DNA from: Tolypothrix sp. PCC 7910
GTDB taxonomy: Bacteria; Cyanobacteriota; Cyanobacteriia; Cyanobacteriales; Nostocaceae
Length of the DNA: 64,000 nucleotides
Direction of reading: 5' to 3'
NCBI RefSeq assembly: GCF_011769525.1
Contig: NZ_CP050440.1
Location: 4,093,501 to 4,157,500 of the forward strand
In this document: piece by piece, positions 34,972 to 43,219 of the stretch
Numbering within the stretch: the first letter of the stretch is position 1
Layout of the letters: every line of letters begins with the position of its first letter
Program-made: the position numbers and the translations under genes
Notes under the pieces: model-generated
Databases searched by the model: none
The model's input: the letters and a program-made list of their open reading frames with translations, nothing else
Told to the model about the DNA's origin: nothing

Positions 34972-36312
34972 GTGGCGAACAAAATACAACTTATAGATAG
35001 GCTCAAATTGGGTTTGGCGGTGTCAGTCGCAAAGGGTGTGACATTTATGGTGCGATCGCTCCGCTTGGGTGCTGCTAGTGTATTACCAGGCTCAATTGCT
35101 CGGCGGATTGAACCGAAGCTGTTGCAGTTATTAAGTCAGCAGGTGAAAAAAGGTGCGATTCTGATTGCTGGTACTAATGGTAAAACTACCACATCGCTGC
35201 TGTTACGGGAAATTTTAGAACGCCAAGGCTACCGTGTTGCTCATAACTCCACAGGCGCAAATTTGGAAAACGGTTTGATGACTGCGCTGATGGATAACAC
35301 TAACATCCTAGGTAGCTTGGATGTTGACTATGCGATTTTAGAAGTTGATGAAAATATTTTACCTAGGGTTTTAGCGCCGATTCAGCCAAAGCTAATTCTG
35401 TGTTTAAACTTATTCCGCGACCAACTCGACAGGTACGGGGAAGTGGATACTATTAGTAAACGCTGGGGAAAGGCGATCGCAACTTTATCACCTGACACTA
35501 TCGTAGTGGCAAATGCCGACGACCCGACAATTTGCTATCTCGGTCAACAATTAACTCAGCAGCGAGTTGCGTTTTTTGGATTGAGTGAACCGGAACATTA
35601 TTTAGAAGCAATTCCCCATGCTGTAGATTCGATTTATTGTCCCAGATGCGGCAAGGCCTTAGACTACAAAGGCGTTTACTTGTCCCACATGGGGGAATAT
35701 AGCTGTTCTAATTGCGGCTTTAGTAGAAGTCAACCCAGCCTCAATAGTAGCGAATGGCCACAAATTTTGGTGGGTTTATATAACAAATATAATACCTTAG
35801 CTGCTGCCACTGCTGCCCAAGAATTAGGAGTTGATGGAGTCACTATCCGCGAAACAATTCCCAATTTCCAAGCAGCCTTTGGACGTGCGGAAGAGTTAGA
35901 AATTAACGGGAAAAAGGTAAGAATTTTATTATCAAAAAATCCTGTGGGGACGAATGAAACTATTCGCGTAGTTACAGAAAGTGCTGATAAAACTACTTTG
36001 CTAGTATTAAACGACCGAGTGCAAGATGGCGAAGATGTGTCTTGGATTTGGGATGTAGATACAGAGAAACTAGTTCAGCGTGGGGGGACTTTAGTAGTAA
36101 GTGGCGATCGCGCTTATGATATGGCTTTACGTCTGCGCTACAGTGACCCCAATCCTGCCCAAAATTTTAAATTGATTGTGGAAGAAGATTTACGTCAGGC
36201 TATTAACACCGCCTTAGAGCGTACACCCAACAACGAAACCCTGCATATTTTACCTACATATACAGCAATGTTGAACGTGCGCGAAGTATTAACCGGACGC
36301 AAAATTTTATAA
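34972..36312 (+). CDS. murT: Lipid II isoglutaminyl synthase, MurT (Mur ligase) subunit
   Basis: This protein of 446 residues activates the D-glutamate carboxyl group of lipid II with ATP so that GatD can deliver ammonia, giving D-isoglutamine in peptidoglycan. It has the Mur ligase P-loop GTNGKTT at 67-73, NLFRDQLDRYGE near 146-157, a Cys4 zinc ribbon with C223, C226, C245 and C248 that is characteristic of MurT, and a C-terminal DUF1727-type domain (FGRAEELEINGK and LSKNPVGTNETIR). The start is GTG without a clear Shine-Dalgarno sequence. GatD follows after 85 bp, confirming the pair. The gap contains a GACGCGAT palindrome. Confidence 0.92.
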   Translation: MANKIQLIDRLKLGLAVSVAKGVTFMVRSLRLGAASVLPGSIARRIEPKLLQLLSQQVKKGAILIAGTNGKTTTSLLLREILERQGYRVAHNSTGANLENGLMTALMDNTNILGSLDVDYAILEVDENILPRVLAPIQPKLILCLNLFRDQLDRYGEVDTISKRWGKAIATLSPDTIVVANADDPTICYLGQQLTQQRVAFFGLSEPEHYLEAIPHAVDSIYCPRCGKALDYKGVYLSHMGEYSCSNCGFSRSQPSLNSSEWPQILVGLYNKYNTLAAATAAQELGVDGVTIRETIPNFQAAFGRAEELEINGKKVRILLSKNPVGTNETIRVVTESADKTTLLVLNDRVQDGEDVSWIWDVDTEKLVQRGGTLVVSGDRAYDMALRLRYSDPNPAQNFKLIVEEDLRQAINTALERTPNNETLHILPTYTAMLNVREVLTGRKIL

Positions 36313-36330
36313 ATTAGTCAAAACTTGTAG

Positions 36331-36350
36331 AGACGCGATTCATCGCGTCT
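36331..36350. repeat. Short palindrome, GACGCGAT family, between murT and gatD
   Basis: AGACGCGATTCATCGCGTCT lies inside the apparent murT-gatD operon. Its centre (TC) differs from the TA of the copy at 14704. It could form an intercistronic hairpin that affects the ratio of the two subunits. Confidence 0.75.
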
Positions 36351-36397
36351 GTCAAACATTCCAATTACCAATTACCAATTACCCATTCCCCAATACT

Positions 36398-37201
36398 ATG
36401 CAAATTACAATCGGTTGGTTATATCCGACGCTAATGAGTACCTATGGCGATCGCGGTAATGTAATTACTATAGAACGTCGCGCTCAATGGCGGGGATTTG
36501 GCGTTAAGGTTGTACCTTTGGATCAAAATGCGACAGCAGAGGATATTAAATCTGTTGATTTAATTGTCGGTGGTGGCGCACAAGACCGCCAGCAAGAAAT
36601 TGTTATGCGCGATTTGCAAGGTGCAAAAGCTGATGCAATGCGTGAAAAAATTGAAAATGGTACACCAGGAGTATTTACTTGTGGTTCGCCGCAGTTGTTA
36701 GGACATTATTACGAACCTGGACTAGGACAGCGCATTGAAGGTTTAGGAATATTAGATTTAGTCTCTGTCCATCCTGGTGAAAATACTAAACGCTGCATTG
36801 GTAATTTGGTGATTGAAGTTACAGCTTCTCGCCTAGCGCAGGATTTAAAAGCGATGACAGGTAGCACACCTTATTTAGTTGGCTTTGAAAATCATGGTGG
36901 ACGTACCAAGCTAGGGAAAGTGGAAGCCTTGGGAAAAGTAGTTTACGGCTTAGGCAATAACGGTGAAGATGGGACGGAGGGAGCATTTTATCAGAATGCG
37001 ATCGCAACCTATTCTCACGGCCCCTTGTTACCCAAAAATCCCTTTGTTGCAGACTGGTTAATTCAAACAGCATTGCGGCTGAAGTACCAACAGCCAATTA
37101 CCTTAGAACCTTTAGATGATACCTTGGCTATGCAAGCACGGGAAGCAATTTTTAAGCGGTTGAAAGTAAGTTTACCAACACCTGCTGCGGCTAAGGTTTA
37201 A
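36398..37201 (+). CDS. gatD: Lipid II isoglutaminyl synthase, GatD glutamine amidotransferase subunit
   Basis: This class I glutamine amidotransferase of 267 residues, related to the cobyric acid synthase amidotransferase domain, hydrolyses glutamine and supplies ammonia to MurT. The nucleophile is C95 in GVFTCGSPQLLGHYY and the histidine is H207 in TYSHGPLLPKNP. GWLYPTLMSTYGDRGN at the N-terminus is typical of GatD. It is the second gene of the murT-gatD pair. Amidation of lipid II is best known in Gram-positive bacteria, but this gene pair also occurs in cyanobacteria. Confidence 0.92.
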   Translation: MQITIGWLYPTLMSTYGDRGNVITIERRAQWRGFGVKVVPLDQNATAEDIKSVDLIVGGGAQDRQQEIVMRDLQGAKADAMREKIENGTPGVFTCGSPQLLGHYYEPGLGQRIEGLGILDLVSVHPGENTKRCIGNLVIEVTASRLAQDLKAMTGSTPYLVGFENHGGRTKLGKVEALGKVVYGLGNNGEDGTEGAFYQNAIATYSHGPLLPKNPFVADWLIQTALRLKYQQPITLEPLDDTLAMQAREAIFKRLKVSLPTPAAAKV

Positions 37202-37790: not shown

Positions 37791-39008
37791 ATGGTAAATA
37801 CACCTCAAAGTGTCCGAGAAAAAATTCAAGAAGCGAAACAGAAAAAGCTGACAGAATTAGATTTAAGCAATGATTTGTGGACTGAGGAAAAGGATAAATT
37901 AACAGAGATTCCATCTGAGGTTTTTGAACTCGAATGGCTAGAGGTTTTGAAGTTAAGGTACAACCAAATCACGACAATACCAGAAGCCATCACCCGCCTG
38001 CAAAACTTAACCCAGATGGATTTAAGCGGCAACCAAATCAAGACAATACCGGAAGTCATCACCCGCCTGCAAAACTTAACTTCGCTGGATTTAAGCAACA
38101 ACCAAATCACGACAATACCTGAAGTCATTACCCGCTTGCAAAACTTAACTTCGCTGTCTTTAAGCAACAACCAAATCACGACAATACCTGAAGTCATCAC
38201 CTGTTTGCAAAACTTAACTTCGCTGTATTTAAGTGGCAACCAAATCACGACGATATCGGAAGTCATTACCCGCTTGCAAAACTTAACTTCGCTGTTTTTA
38301 GGCTTTAACCAAATCACGACGATACCGGAAGTCATCACCCGCCTGCAAAAATTAACTTGGCTGTATTTAAGTGGCAACCAAATCACGACAATACCTGAAG
38401 TCGTCACCCGCCTGGAAAACTTAACTGCGCTGTTTTTAAGCGACAACCAAATCACGACAATACCGGAAGTCATCACCCGCCTGCAAAACTTAACTCATCT
38501 GGATTTAAACCGCAACCAAATCACGACAATACCGGAAGTCATCACCCGCTTGCAAAATTTAACCGGGCTGTATTTAAACCGCAACCAAATCACGACGATA
38601 CCGGAATTCATCACCCGCCTGGAACACTTAACTTACCTGGATTTAAGCGGCAACCCCATTGAAAAGCCACCCCCAGAAGTGGTTGAAAAAGGTATTGAAG
38701 CGATTAGGAATTATTTTCGTCAACTCCAAGCAGAAGGAACAGATTATATATTTAGAAACGGAATGTTCTATTTATTTATATTCGTAGTTGTATTTTCTCT
38801 AATCGCATTTTTCGGTGGTTCGCTACCTTTTCATTATCTAGCTTTGGCTATTCTGGGTACAGCAATATTTATTATTCTCATTGGTGTTTTACAACTGCGT
38901 CAAGATGACCGTTTATCAGAAAAATCTTTTGTGGAATTGATAAAAATGGTGCTGAAGCAGTTTCCGTTAATTGGCAATTTAATAGATATGTTTCAGCGTG
39001 GTAAATAG
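37791..39008 (+). CDS. Leucine-rich-repeat protein with C-terminal membrane anchor
   Basis: This protein of 405 residues has an N-terminal charged helix (about 5-20), then eleven leucine-rich repeats of 23 residues (about 49-300), each close to LQNLTSLDLSNNQITTIPEV. A linker with an EAIRNYF motif follows, then two membrane helices (about 324-343 and 346-368) and a basic tail. The repeats are nearly identical in DNA as well (69-bp units), showing recent expansion or gene conversion. Repeats of this kind bind proteins, and the topology suggests display at the membrane. In filamentous cyanobacteria similar repeats precede Roc-COR or kinase domains, but none is present here. No operon partner is evident. 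Confidence 0.88.
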   Translation: MVNTPQSVREKIQEAKQKKLTELDLSNDLWTEEKDKLTEIPSEVFELEWLEVLKLRYNQITTIPEAITRLQNLTQMDLSGNQIKTIPEVITRLQNLTSLDLSNNQITTIPEVITRLQNLTSLSLSNNQITTIPEVITCLQNLTSLYLSGNQITTISEVITRLQNLTSLFLGFNQITTIPEVITRLQKLTWLYLSGNQITTIPEVVTRLENLTALFLSDNQITTIPEVITRLQNLTHLDLNRNQITTIPEVITRLQNLTGLYLNRNQITTIPEFITRLEHLTYLDLSGNPIEKPPPEVVEKGIEAIRNYFRQLQAEGTDYIFRNGMFYLFIFVVVFSLIAFFGGSLPFHYLALAILGTAIFIILIGVLQLRQDDRLSEKSFVELIKMVLKQFPLIGNLIDMFQRGK

Positions 39009-39591: not shown

Positions 39592-40455
39592 TCAGGTTAA
39601 GGCTCTTTTTAGTCTTTGTTCCAAGGAAACAAGGTCTACACCTAGGTTCTGTAAAACTTTAATTCCTACTCCCCGTTCTCTGTCTCCCTCTCCTTCCTTC
39701 AGCAAACCTAACAAAATATGTTCGGTTCCAATGTAATTCACACCTAGTTTGCGGGATTCTTCTACTGTTAGTTCTAATAACTTTTTGGCTCTAGGTGTAA
39801 AGGGAATATCTAGAGGTGTCAATCCCCTCCCTCTACCAATGATTTTCTCTACCTCAATTTGAGCATTTTCTAAGTTCACGCCTACAGAACTGAGAAACTG
39901 TGCTGCAAAGCCGCTACCTTCACCAACTAGTCCTAATAAAATCTGTTCGGTACCAACATATCGATGTCCCAAGCGGCGAGATTCACTTTGAGCAATGGAA
40001 ATAGCTGTGATGGCTTTTTGGGTAAATCTTTCAAAACCTCTCAGGTGAAATCGGCCAAATGTAAACCCAAATATCTTTTCAAAAATCGACTCAAAAAATC
40101 TTTCAAACATAAACCCCTCCTGCTGGGATATGTTGCTGATTGACTCAAAGGTGCGATCGCGTTTTGCTTTCCCTGTGGATAGAAAAGACAGCAAATCCTC
40201 CATCGTCTCAGCATTGGCTGAATACCACAAAAATTGCTTATCTTTGCGGCTATTTACTAAACCCTCAATCCGTAGCTTTTCTAAATGGTGTGACAGTGTT
40301 GAGTTGGGAATCTTCAGCTTTTCCTGAATCTCACCCACATTCATTGCATCTGGATAAGCTGCAAACAGTAGCCGCATGATTTCCAGACGCGGCTCAGAAC
40401 CTAATGCAGCAAAGATATCTGCATAGCGAGCTGTGTCTTCATTATTTATTGCCAT
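39592..40455 (-). CDS. ArsR-type winged-helix regulator fused to a ClpC-like N-domain
   Basis: This protein of 287 residues has two recognisable parts. Residues 10-95 form an ArsR-family winged helix ([15 protein letters not shown], then [19 protein letters not shown] as recognition helix and wing). Residues 140-287 form a double Clp N-terminal repeat, closest by eye to Clp[54 protein letters not shown] and [18 protein letters not shown]. There is no AAA+ ATPase. The linker (110-140) is rich in Phe and Glu. Clp N-domains bind substrates or adaptors, so this could be a transcription factor that senses ClpC substrates, adaptors or arginine phosphorylation; that role is inference. It is divergent from the debranching enzyme gene across 478 bp. 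Confidence 0.88.
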
Positions 40456-40933
40456 ATTTCTAGAATAGTCGAAATAATTAGTTTGTCAACCAGCGGATAT
40501 TAGAATTGTTAAATCTGGAATCTGTATTTTTGCTTAATTTTCTGTTTCCCAAACCTTAAAGAGACTTGAAAAAATTGAGTAAAAATATAAATTTCTCATA
40601 AAGGCAATTGCAATCCCCAGCTTTGATTAGCCATATTTTTCTGGGATTCAAGTTTAAAAGCTAATTATTTAAAGGCTTTGAGCTACTTCTGAGTCTAAAT
40701 TATCAATTCCTAAAAATTTGATTGTTGTAGATTTAATAGCTGCCCTTTTTCCAAGAGTGTGTAAGTATTATTTTGGCTTGAATGGCTCAACTGAGTTTGC
40801 TAAGGCAGCTTAGTGCCTAAGTTCCAAATGAGGGAAACCTCTACTGGGGCTTCTTTCCTTTTGACGCTGATGCAATGCCTACGGCGGGCTATGCTTACGC
40901 GAAAATCTAGACCTGTACACGGAAGACTGGCTA
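40456..40933. promoter_or_regulatory. Divergent promoter region of ArsR-Clp fusion and debranching enzyme genes
   Basis: It is AT-rich on the left, where ATTTCTAGAATAGTCGAAATA just upstream of the regulator start is a candidate operator with partial symmetry. Fragments such as GCCTACGGCGGGCTATGC near 40880 resemble interspersed repeats. No gene is visible. Autoregulation by the ArsR-type protein would be expected here. Confidence 0.35.
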
Positions 40934-43219
40934 ATGACATCGGATATACTGATGACACCGGAAAAAATTTTCTTAGACGGAAAGACTTATATTCCCGCAG
41001 AACAATTACCTATCCCGGAGTGGCCTTGTGTTGTAAGTGAAAGACCACAACCAACGCTGACGGTCAAAGATGATGATTTATTTTTTATCACAGATACGAT
41101 TGGGAACATTTCTGGATGTTCCTTGAACGATGGCAATCCCAGCATGGGGCTGTTTTGCTGTGATACGCGTTTTTTGAGCCGCCTAGAGTTGCAGATTGAA
41201 GGGCGATCGCCTGTTTTACTCAGCAGTACTGCGGATAAAGGATTTGCACTCTCGGTTCTTTGTACTAATCCCAGAATCGATGAACGCCTCAAAGCTGATA
41301 CTGTAGGGATACGTCGCGAACTGGTGCTGAATGGCGCACTATTTGAAGAAATTGAAGTATCCAACTACAGCACAACTACCGTTAGTTTTGAACTGAGTAT
41401 CAGCTTTGATGCCGATTTTGTGGATTTATTTGAAGTGCGTGGCTATGGCAGAGAAAAGCGCGGTAGGCTGTTACGCTTAGTAGAGCCAATGCCAGAAGAC
41501 GGAACATCGGCTGATGGTGGTTCACCCCTACCAACTCAACCTACGATGATGCGGGATGAATCCTTAACCCTTGCCTATCAAGGTTTGGATGGTTTGGTGA
41601 TGGAATCGCGGATTAATTTCCAGCATCGCCAACCAGACTATTTTAAGGGTTACACTGCGGTGTGGCAGCTAGAGTTGGCTTCTCACGAAACCCAAAAATT
41701 GGGTTATCGGGTGAATATGTTGCGAAACAATCAGCCGAGTTCAACTGTCAGTGCGGCGGTGACTTTAGGACAAGCCAAAGCTGCTGAATTAATGGAAGAA
41801 CAGCATTGGGTGCAACAAATTACCCGCATCAGTTCCGATAAAAGCACTTTTAACCGAGTGATTGAACGGGCGGAACAGGATATGTATTTGTTGCGCCAGT
41901 CTTTTGGCAAGAATAAGACTGTTTCGGCTGGTGTCCCTTGGTTTTCGGCATTGTTTGGGCGAGATTCCATCATTACAGCTTCCCAAACTTTGATGTTAAA
42001 TCCCCGTATCGCCAAAGAAACCTTGACGCTATTAGCGACATACCAAGGCAAAGTTGACGATGAGTGGCGCGAAGAAGAACCAGGAAAGATTTTACACGAG
42101 TTGCGCTTAGGGGAAATGGCCAGGTGTCAAGAAATCCCTCATACACCTTACTACGGTACAGTTGATGCTACGCCCCTATGGCTGATGCTTTATGCTGAAT
42201 ATTATGCCTGGACGCACGATCAAGAAACATTAGAGCAGCTTTGGCCCAATGCTTTAGCCGCAATGGACTGGATTGACCGCAACACTAAAGAAACTAGCTA
42301 CTTGAGCTACTATCGTAAATCCAAACGCGGTCTGGCTAACCAAGGCTGGAAAGATTCCGGCGACTGTATTGTAGACCATAAGGGAGAGTTAGCTAACGGC
42401 CCGATCGCCCTTTGCGAGGTGCAAGCTTACGTCTATGCAGCTAAAATGCGCCTTTCTGAAATTGCGCGGATGAAAAAGCGCCTAGACTTAGCAGACCGTT
42501 GGCTAGAAGAAGCGAAAAATCTGAAATTGCGGTTTAACCGAGATTTCTGGATAGAAGACCAAGATTTCTGCGCCTTGGCTTTGGATGGTGACGGGAAGCA
42601 GGTAGATAGTATTACTTCAAATCCTGGCCATTGTCTGCATTTAGGCATCTTTACACCCGAAAAAGCCTACAGCGTCGCGGAAAGGTTACGCGCCCCAGAT
42701 ATGTTTAATGGTTGGGGGATTCGCACACTCAGCAGTTTATCGCCAGCTTATAACCCAATGGGCTATCACATCGGTTCAGTGTGGCCTCATGATAACGCCA
42801 TCATTGCTATGGGATTGCGATCGCTGGGTTTAATCGATCAAGCTTTAGAACTCTTCCAAGGTTTGTTTGATATGACTACCCAGCAACCATATCAACGTCC
42901 CCCAGAACTGTTCTGTGGTTACGAACGCAACGGTGATAATGCACCTGTACAGTATCCTGTTGCTTGTACTCCCCAAGCTTGGGCGACTGGTAGTATCTTC
43001 CAACTACTGCAAATGATCGTCAACCTCGTCCCTGACGCGCAAAATAATTGCTTGCGAATTATCGATCCGGCTTTACCAGAGTCAATTAATCGCCTTTCCC
43101 TGCATAATTTGCACGTCGGCCCTACCGTCCTCGATTTAGAATTTGAGCGTACTGGTAGCACTACCGCTTGTCGTGTAGCTAAAAAACGCGGCAATTTACG
43201 GGTGGTGATTGAGGCATAG
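40934..43219 (+). CDS. Glycogen debranching enzyme-type amylo-alpha-1,6-glucosidase
   Basis: This protein of 761 residues has the two-domain structure of bacterial and archaeal debranching enzymes: an N-terminal beta-rich domain (about 30-290; DTIGNISGCSLNDGNPSMGLFCCDTRFLSRLE region) and an (alpha/alpha)6 barrel (about 340-755) with VPWFSALFGRDSIITA, GTVDATPLWLMLYAEYY, QGWKDSGDCI, GHCLHLGIF and WPHDNAIIAMG. The acidic residues in the FGRDS and WKDSGD segments are in the active site region of this clan. It probably removes alpha-1,6 branches in glycogen or a related glucan. The first ATG is used here; homologues often begin at an internal methionine equivalent to 40952 (MTPEKIF). Confidence 0.87.
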   Translation: MTSDILMTPEKIFLDGKTYIPAEQLPIPEWPCVVSERPQPTLTVKDDDLFFITDTIGNISGCSLNDGNPSMGLFCCDTRFLSRLELQIEGRSPVLLSSTADKGFALSVLCTNPRIDERLKADTVGIRRELVLNGALFEEIEVSNYSTTTVSFELSISFDADFVDLFEVRGYGREKRGRLLRLVEPMPEDGTSADGGSPLPTQPTMMRDESLTLAYQGLDGLVMESRINFQHRQPDYFKGYTAVWQLELASHETQKLGYRVNMLRNNQPSSTVSAAVTLGQAKAAELMEEQHWVQQITRISSDKSTFNRVIERAEQDMYLLRQSFGKNKTVSAGVPWFSALFGRDSIITASQTLMLNPRIAKETLTLLATYQGKVDDEWREEEPGKILHELRLGEMARCQEIPHTPYYGTVDATPLWLMLYAEYYAWTHDQETLEQLWPNALAAMDWIDRNTKETSYLSYYRKSKRGLANQGWKDSGDCIVDHKGELANGPIALCEVQAYVYAAKMRLSEIARMKKRLDLADRWLEEAKNLKLRFNRDFWIEDQDFCALALDGDGKQVDSITSNPGHCLHLGIFTPEKAYSVAERLRAPDMFNGWGIRTLSSLSPAYNPMGYHIGSVWPHDNAIIAMGLRSLGLIDQALELFQGLFDMTTQQPYQRPPELFCGYERNGDNAPVQYPVACTPQAWATGSIFQLLQMIVNLVPDAQNNCLRIIDPALPESINRLSLHNLHVGPTVLDLEFERTGSTTACRVAKKRGNLRVVIEA

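Follow-up and report, generated by a model that had tools for sequence, protein, structure and literature searches.

The window, a 64,000-nt stretch of the Tolypothrix sp. PCC 7910 genome, contains a gene on the reverse strand whose 287-residue product joins an ArsR winged helix to a ClpC-type N-domain (Clp_N), the architecture that the original prediction had read from the open reading frame and that Pfam confirmed (Table 1). The N-terminal part was recognized as an ArsR/SmtB domain, and the C-terminal part comprised the double Clp_N repeat found in ClpC/Hsp100, after which the protein stops, with no AAA+ module detected by Pfam in this protein. Such a domain make-up supports the further idea that a Clp_N domain placed on a DNA-binding domain could allow Clp ligands to control transcription. 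An alignment of 46 intact copies with a known locus, 29 from the same family and 17 from the order and without the intact copy of genome G403, showed that the STLSHHL and KLR residues of the presumed recognition helix are invariant (46/46), and this motif was nearly identical in stand-alone ArsR proteins that share the palindrome of the fusion gene.

The two domains are connected by a linker with an AF2 pLDDT below 50 across residues 100–139 (31–39 for residues 101–140). AF2 draws a helix at residues 117–128 inside this stretch; we considered that it might plug the Clp_N groove in cis, an idea to which these pLDDT values gave no support either way. Given the disordered linker in a model of a single chain, no allosteric path between ArsR and Clp_N was visible in the AF2 model.

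Table 1 Features of the ArsR-Clp_N locus (window coordinates).
Feature	Position	Strand	Basis
ArsR-Clp_N fusion gene, 287 aa	39592..40455	−	ORF; Pfam HTH_5 and Clp_N; 46-member alignment
ArsR winged-helix domain, residues 1–92	40180..40455	−	Pfam HTH_5; AF2
Presumed DNA-recognition helix, residues 51–63	40267..40305	−	Invariant columns; AF2 helix 51–63; stand-alone ArsR sequences
Linker, residues 93–140	40036..40179	−	Low AF2 pLDDT
ClpC-type N-domain, two repeats, residues 141–284	39604..40035	−	Pfam Clp_N; N-domain comparison
Predicted operator palindrome ATTTCGACTATTCTAGAAAT, directly before the fusion ATG	40456..40475	−	Pattern search; footprint of 43 promoters
Predicted −35 hexamer TTGACA	40484..40489	−	Promoter scan; promoter alignment
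Predicted −10 hexamer TATTCT, within the palindrome, spacer 16	40462..40467	−	Promoter scan; promoter alignment

A palindrome at the start codon of the fusion gene

A candidate DNA site had been anticipated in the intergenic gap at 40456–40933, and a putative operator palindrome indeed lies there, directly before the fusion ATG. The palindrome abutted the ATG in 44 of 46 fusion loci and was shifted upstream by 2 bases in L142 and by 24 bases in L155. In a gapless footprint of 43 promoters, from which L142, L155 and L158 were left out since their spacing or start choice differs, the mean information reached 1.74 bits per position at −22 to −1, compared with 0.68 at +4 to +30 and 0.11 at −90 to −46, and TTGACA started at exactly −34 in 29 of the 43. 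The consensus, ATTTCGATTATTCTAGAAAT, was self-complementary at 14 of 20 positions, and within the window the palindrome matched only once at up to three mismatches (shuffle mean 0.13). A promoter scan returned TTGACA-16-TATTCT at the fusion start, with a scan total for the window (4, versus 3.4 expected in shuffles) that is not above chance by itself. The predicted −10 element is part of the palindrome and stops 7 nt short of the fusion ATG, from which we expect a transcript with little or no leader.

Genome scans tied the palindrome to the fusion gene. The Tolypothrix genome contained no second site at 0–1 mismatches and six sites in all at up to three mismatches, versus 12 for a reversed control; as the other five, with 2–3 mismatches each, were at the level of this control, we rejected a wider regulon. 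Among 31 of the 32 other matching genomes of the same family (G461 was left out), 29 had exactly one site at 0–1 mismatches, located at the fusion gene, which is broken in G334 and G405, while the site of the fusion in G525 carried two mismatches and G459, which encodes the Clp_N part only, had no site. These 31 relatives held 17 further two-mismatch sites versus 10 with the reversed control pattern. The two-mismatch site ATGTCTATTATTCGAGAAAT occurred in the Tolypothrix genome and in three relatives, the Tolypothrix copy lying inside a coding frame that is kdpC-like by eye. Across the order sample, the palindrome followed by ATG was found within one mismatch in 22 of 387 genomes and its reversed control in none; the 22 comprised 18 intact fusions, one broken fusion (G334), two stand-alone ArsR genes (intact in G600, frame interrupted in G799) and one likely remnant, with only 35 codons, linker-remnant-like by eye, following the palindrome and ATG in G681.

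The footprint and the genome scans agree on a predicted palindromic operator at the fusion promoter, to which the palindrome is, as judged from these genomes, linked near-exclusively. Because the palindrome covers the −10 element of the fusion gene and is associated with hardly any other gene, we predict with high confidence that the fusion protein is an autorepressor. The overlap with the −10 element points to repression rather than activation, and the protein is very probably a leaderless autorepressor rather than a regulator of the neighboring debranching enzyme.

Distribution and gene neighborhood of the ArsR-Clp_N family

ArsR-Clp_N is a real protein family. A search with the whole fusion protein (E up to 1e-58) matched 33 of the 217 genomes from the same family, and 30 of these encode an intact fusion (the Tolypothrix genome is included in both counts); the ArsR frame was broken in G334 and G405, and only the Clp_N part was found in G459. 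The broken copies (L090/L192 in G334 and L187 in G405) retained the palindrome and a still open Clp_N frame. In the order sample, 21 of 388 genomes matched, 16 of which lie outside the family, and G704 carried two copies; the survey of such architectures called for by the original prediction yielded 30 intact fusions in the 217 family genomes and 16 further genomes in the order sample. All 386 genomes of the phylum sample matched at E at most 0.001, mostly through the Clp_N part of ClpC; with at most six candidates scored per genome and divergent fusions (for example that of G116) not distinguished, four of them (G000, G300, G005 and G174) had a full-length main-branch fusion and G334 a broken copy. 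None of the seven congeners in the same-family survey matched, so that, with the broken copies in G334 and G405, the gene is patchy in occurrence. A second, divergent ArsR-Clp_N branch turned up in family f13, where 10 of 13 genomes had it (loci L257–L266).

In a tree of 46 fusions, 27 cyanobacterial and 12 other N-domains, the fusion Clp_N domains formed one clade separate from the ClpC rows (SH-aLRT 99), on branches much longer than those of ClpC, a topology by which the fusion has a single origin. The ratio of summed dN to summed dS over 165 pairs (164 for the linker), which share branches, was 0.09 for ArsR, 0.28 for the linker and 0.14 for Clp_N, placing both halves, by this measure, under purifying selection.

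No fusion was seen on plasmids or phages: none of the 1235 plasmid and 25 phage records that matched covered at least 80% of the query. One IMG/VR contig (L256) encoded a 54% match to query residues 125–280; ClpC-type N-domains at 50–54% identity are encoded by this contig and by the mycobacteriophages Phabba and Myrna. The best 80 of 584 relatives in the named genome collection, mostly actinobacterial and perhaps lacking records close to the Tolypothrix genome, included six Clp_N frames shorter than 600 aa, of which five reached the end of their locus; the 154-aa frame of L032 was short within its own locus, and in L015 about 200 residues of open frame preceded Clp_N. Judged from search listings, we met no description of an ArsR-Clp_N protein in the literature, and ArsR is mentioned solely as the regulator of arsenate resistance in the available part of PMC3610870.

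With neighbors named from the G334 locus and by eye, a pyrB-like gene directly preceded the fusion in 11 of 20 other loci and lay within four genes of it in 13, and, no more than four genes downstream of it, a pentapeptide-repeat gene was present in 10 loci and a pmbA/tldD-like pair in 8. In none of the 20 (L168 spans 3.6 kb only) did the window's debranching enzyme recur as a neighbor. This different neighborhood, together with the absence from the congeners surveyed, suggests relocation or transfer of the window copy. The fusion gene adjoins a gene for a leucine-rich-repeat protein (37791–39008, forward strand; Pfam LRR_4, 1.3e-66) with a hydrophobic stretch near the C-terminus by eye, which was not a conserved neighbor in the loci compared. 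The window also holds, at 34972–37201 on the forward strand, a MurT/GatD-like pair, a lipid II isoglutaminyl synthase type known mainly from Gram-positive bacteria, which matched NCBIfam NF045635 (3.4e-73) and NF045636 (3.1e-46), both below the curated cut-offs.

Ancestry of the ArsR half and loss of the thiol pair

In G600, a stand-alone ArsR gene has the same palindrome before its ATG, and the last helix of its product ends in FLFEECCTRN. Five stand-alone ArsR proteins of the fusion-like kind carry ECC, and the relatives of the G600 protein in L238–L241 keep the CC pair. The palindrome abutted the ATG in the stand-alone loci L226, L238 and L241, with variant forms, read through the translated frame, in L239 and L240. 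The genes in L240 and L241 adjoin an ArsI/CadI enzyme and that in L241 also ACR3, all above cut-off, while L238 has an adjoining ArsP_1 permease and L239 a similar permease; the closest NCBIfam models of these ArsP_1-type permeases were Cu/Zn efflux and SaoE, below cut-off. The CC pair of the stand-alone proteins aligns with that of the arsenic repressor 6j05, in which arsenite binding requires both Cys95 and Cys96; Cys95Ala or Cys96Ala alone was enough to abolish the arsenic response of its variants in a FRET sensor (PMC8470949).

In an ArsR tree of 58 rows and 106 columns, all fusions grouped in one clade (96/100) that excluded the stand-alone CC proteins, in an alignment of few columns in which long branches meet, those of stand-alone and f13 rows among them. 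At the place of the CC pair, 15 of the 46 main-branch fusions had one cysteine, 31 had none and none had the pair. The window protein has no cysteine anywhere and therefore lacks a thiolate ligand site of the 6j05 kind; on this ground we rejected metal sensing by it. Read from the trees, motifs and promoters, the ArsR half of the fusion descends from a CC-bearing arsenic-type repressor that used the same operator, and in the main branch the thiol pair has decayed to one cysteine or none. With the pair in 0 of 46 fusions, another input is needed.

Conservation of the Clp_N surface

Clp_N residues are numbered here as in M. tuberculosis ClpC1, and we take Q17, L88, I13, M14, P79 and L92 to be groove contacts of the ClpC N-domain. 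F96, F172 and E181 are contact residues of mycobacterial ClpC2 (PMC10030653), corresponding, in our own reading, to F2, F80 and E89 of ClpC1, and K85 is a further contact of the ClpC N-domain (PMC12583610). The expectation of an intact binding surface was borne out for F80 (41/46), K85 and Q17 (44/46 each) and E89 (40/46), with lower retention of F2 (27/46), L92 (9/46) and M14 (0/46). Mean retention was 0.86 for a six-residue groove set that includes contacts beyond those named in the papers, versus a background of 0.62 (resampling 0.043), 0.83 for the four groove residues that the papers name (0.13) and 0.51 for a wider contact set (0.72), so that groove conservation is only weakly above background. 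The N-domain positions used for docking onto the ring and M-domain, taken from PMC12583610, were kept about as well (0.78, resampling 0.26), and thus conservation does not single out ligand binding. By these retention data the Clp_N groove is not lost, yet selection for ligand binding is not proven.

Arginine phosphorylation had been offered as one possible input. The two pocket glutamates, E32 and E106, were invariant in the 46 fusions (resampling 0.0095) and equally in all 107 other N-domains compared, which makes this generic pair uninformative on phosphoarginine and leaves that proposal without specific support; the arginine kinase model PF00217 had no match in the Tolypothrix genome, where the control likewise matched nowhere.

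The f13 branch kept the CC pair in 9 of 10 members, with the SHHL motif in 0 of 10 and the palindrome in 0 of 10 within 400 nt upstream; K85, E89 and Q17 were each kept in 2 of 10, F80 in 8 of 10, and F2 was replaced by tyrosine in all ten. Compared with the main-branch retentions, the two branches kept largely opposite parts of the ancestral protein, a contrast that we count in favor of the explanation given below. On the other side, the f13 sequences show that ArsR and Clp_N can remain fused even where the DNA-reading helix is not conserved, which, like the patchy occurrence of the gene, counts against this explanation.

A possible self-inducing sensor and decoy

The original prediction knew of no described system of this type, which the work on mycobacterial ClpC2 corrects. 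ClpC2, likewise a Clp_N protein lacking AAA+, binds the ClpC1-binding antibiotic cyclomarin and represses its own promoter; cyclomarin releases it from DNA, and ClpC2 then soaks up cyclomarin in a sponge role (PMC10030653). On balance, we favor the fusion as a one-component autorepressor with a ClpC N-domain as ligand input and an added decoy function. The ArsR half, presumably dimeric, would bind the palindrome, which spans the −10 element and reaches its own ATG, and switch off its own promoter. Clp_N probably serves as the input of the repressor: a ligand occupying the groove, such as a natural peptide that targets ClpC, an adaptor or anti-adaptor, or surplus unfolded substrate, would make the repressor release DNA and lead to more fusion protein. 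The extra N-domains would then compete with ClpC for the ligand, so that sensor and effector would be one protein, as in ClpC2; our confidence in the decoy role stops just short of even.

To two alternatives we give very little weight. That the protein controls the divergent glycogen debranching gene (40934–43219), for which its position in the window would speak, is the least probable of all: the palindrome coincides with the start of the fusion gene itself, some 460 bp away from the ATG of the debranching gene, and has no second site in the window at up to three mismatches. In the 20 other loci the debranching gene is missing throughout (with L168 covering 3.6 kb only), and the fusion gene has a pyrB-like gene nearby in 13 of them. 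Hardly more credible is a repressor that still senses arsenic or another thiol-bound metal and carries Clp_N as a passenger. Descent from an arsenic-type ArsR that had the CC pair and shared the palindrome would fit, as would the pair kept in nine of ten f13 relatives, but the cysteine-free window protein, the missing pair in the whole main branch and the loss of response on mutating a single cysteine in 6j05 (PMC8470949) argue against it, as do the purifying selection on Clp_N and the lack of a recognized ars-type gene beside the window copy.

A sensor of proteotoxic stress or adaptor load without a decoy, in which surplus unfolded protein or adaptors of the ClpS/NblA type titrate Clp_N and free the ArsR half, was the idea of the original prediction and seems unlikely to us, although the groove of the ClpC N-domain binds unfolded substrate and adaptors (PMC12583610), ClpS and NblA are known adaptors of cyanobacterial ClpC (PMC7966870), and ClpC2 is mildly heat-induced and slows casein degradation (PMC10030653). 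With the sole strong palindrome at its own promoter, in the Tolypothrix genome and in 29 of 31 relatives, such a pure sensor would have no output beyond more of itself, and the patchy occurrence speaks against a core stress regulator. We regard as improbable a degradation switch, in which Clp_N is the handle by which ClpC partners mark or tether the repressor and the repressor level follows ClpC activity; the largely kept ring and M-domain docking positions (mean 0.78, resampling 0.26) would agree with it. Clp N-domains, however, recruit substrates, and we know of none that is itself a degron. Adaptors do bind the N-domain (PMC12583610), but ClpC2, the nearest worked case, acts through ligand binding (PMC10030653).

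Returning to the ligand-responsive autorepressor, we tentatively suggest, at somewhat less than even confidence, that an arsenic-type repressor exchanged its sensor for a ClpC N-domain input, giving a self-inducing sensor and decoy that arose independently of mycobacterial ClpC2. The DNA-binding domain and palindrome would have been kept, the arsenic thiols dropped stepwise and the ClpC N-domain taken up. Such a circuit has a precedent in ClpC2, whereas the architecture, the ancestry and the convergence appear to be new. If this is true, two unrelated halves reached the same circuit of a palindrome at the start codon, a leaderless promoter and an AAA-less Clp_N; the ClpC N-domain would then be a frequent target in nature that is worth protecting, and cyanobacteria would encounter toxins directed at their own ClpC. 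The system would also provide a reporter, ready for use, of what binds the cyanobacterial ClpC N-domain, and genetic access to ClpC-attacking natural products outside actinobacteria. The family would further document, in sequence, how a one-component regulator can exchange its signal yet retain its operator, with the intermediates (CC, single C, none) preserved.

Comparison with known systems

Like ClpC2, the fusion combines a Clp_N domain lacking AAA+ with a palindrome adjoining the start codon of its own gene, and its transcript is predicted to be leaderless; in ClpC2 the palindrome lies 1–2 nt before the ORF and a leaderless transcript was likewise suggested (PMC10030653). Autorepression, shown for ClpC2, is predicted for the fusion, and the groove known in ClpC2 to bind a ClpC-targeting peptide is partly conserved in it. 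By contrast, the N-terminal half of the fusion is an ArsR winged helix rather than a four-helix dimerization domain, which in ClpC2 is without ClpC1 homology, the authors placing the DNA contacts in the Clp_N part (PMC10030653). The operators differ as well (CGTCAAC-n5-GTTGACG in ClpC2, consensus ATTTCGATTATTCTAGAAAT in the fusion), and ClpC2 comes from Actinomycetota, the fusion from another phylum. By inference from these likenesses the fusion may work like ClpC2, but it is not a member of the ClpC2 family, because its DNA-binding half is an ArsR of arsenic-repressor descent in place of the four-helix half. Small plasmids of 13–15 kb from Mycobacterium avium and M. intracellulare gave a 47% Clp_N match (query residues 141–271) in a region with no feature in PLSDB's incomplete gene table; these matches could be plasmid-borne ClpC2-like genes.

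Compared with the arsenic-type ArsR/SmtB of Acidithiobacillus ferrooxidans (6j05), the main-branch fusions have lost the CC pair, a ClpC N-domain follows ArsR, and no linked ars-type gene was recognized at the window. In contrast to the N-domain of cyanobacterial ClpC (Hsp100), that of the fusion comes without AAA+ modules or M-domain and evolves far faster. Plant ClpT1 and ClpT2 (4y0b and 4y0c) are likewise AAA-less Clp_N proteins, and ClpT associates with the ClpP ring (PMC7966870), whereas the DNA-binding domain and palindrome of the ArsR-Clp_N fusion point to a regulator.
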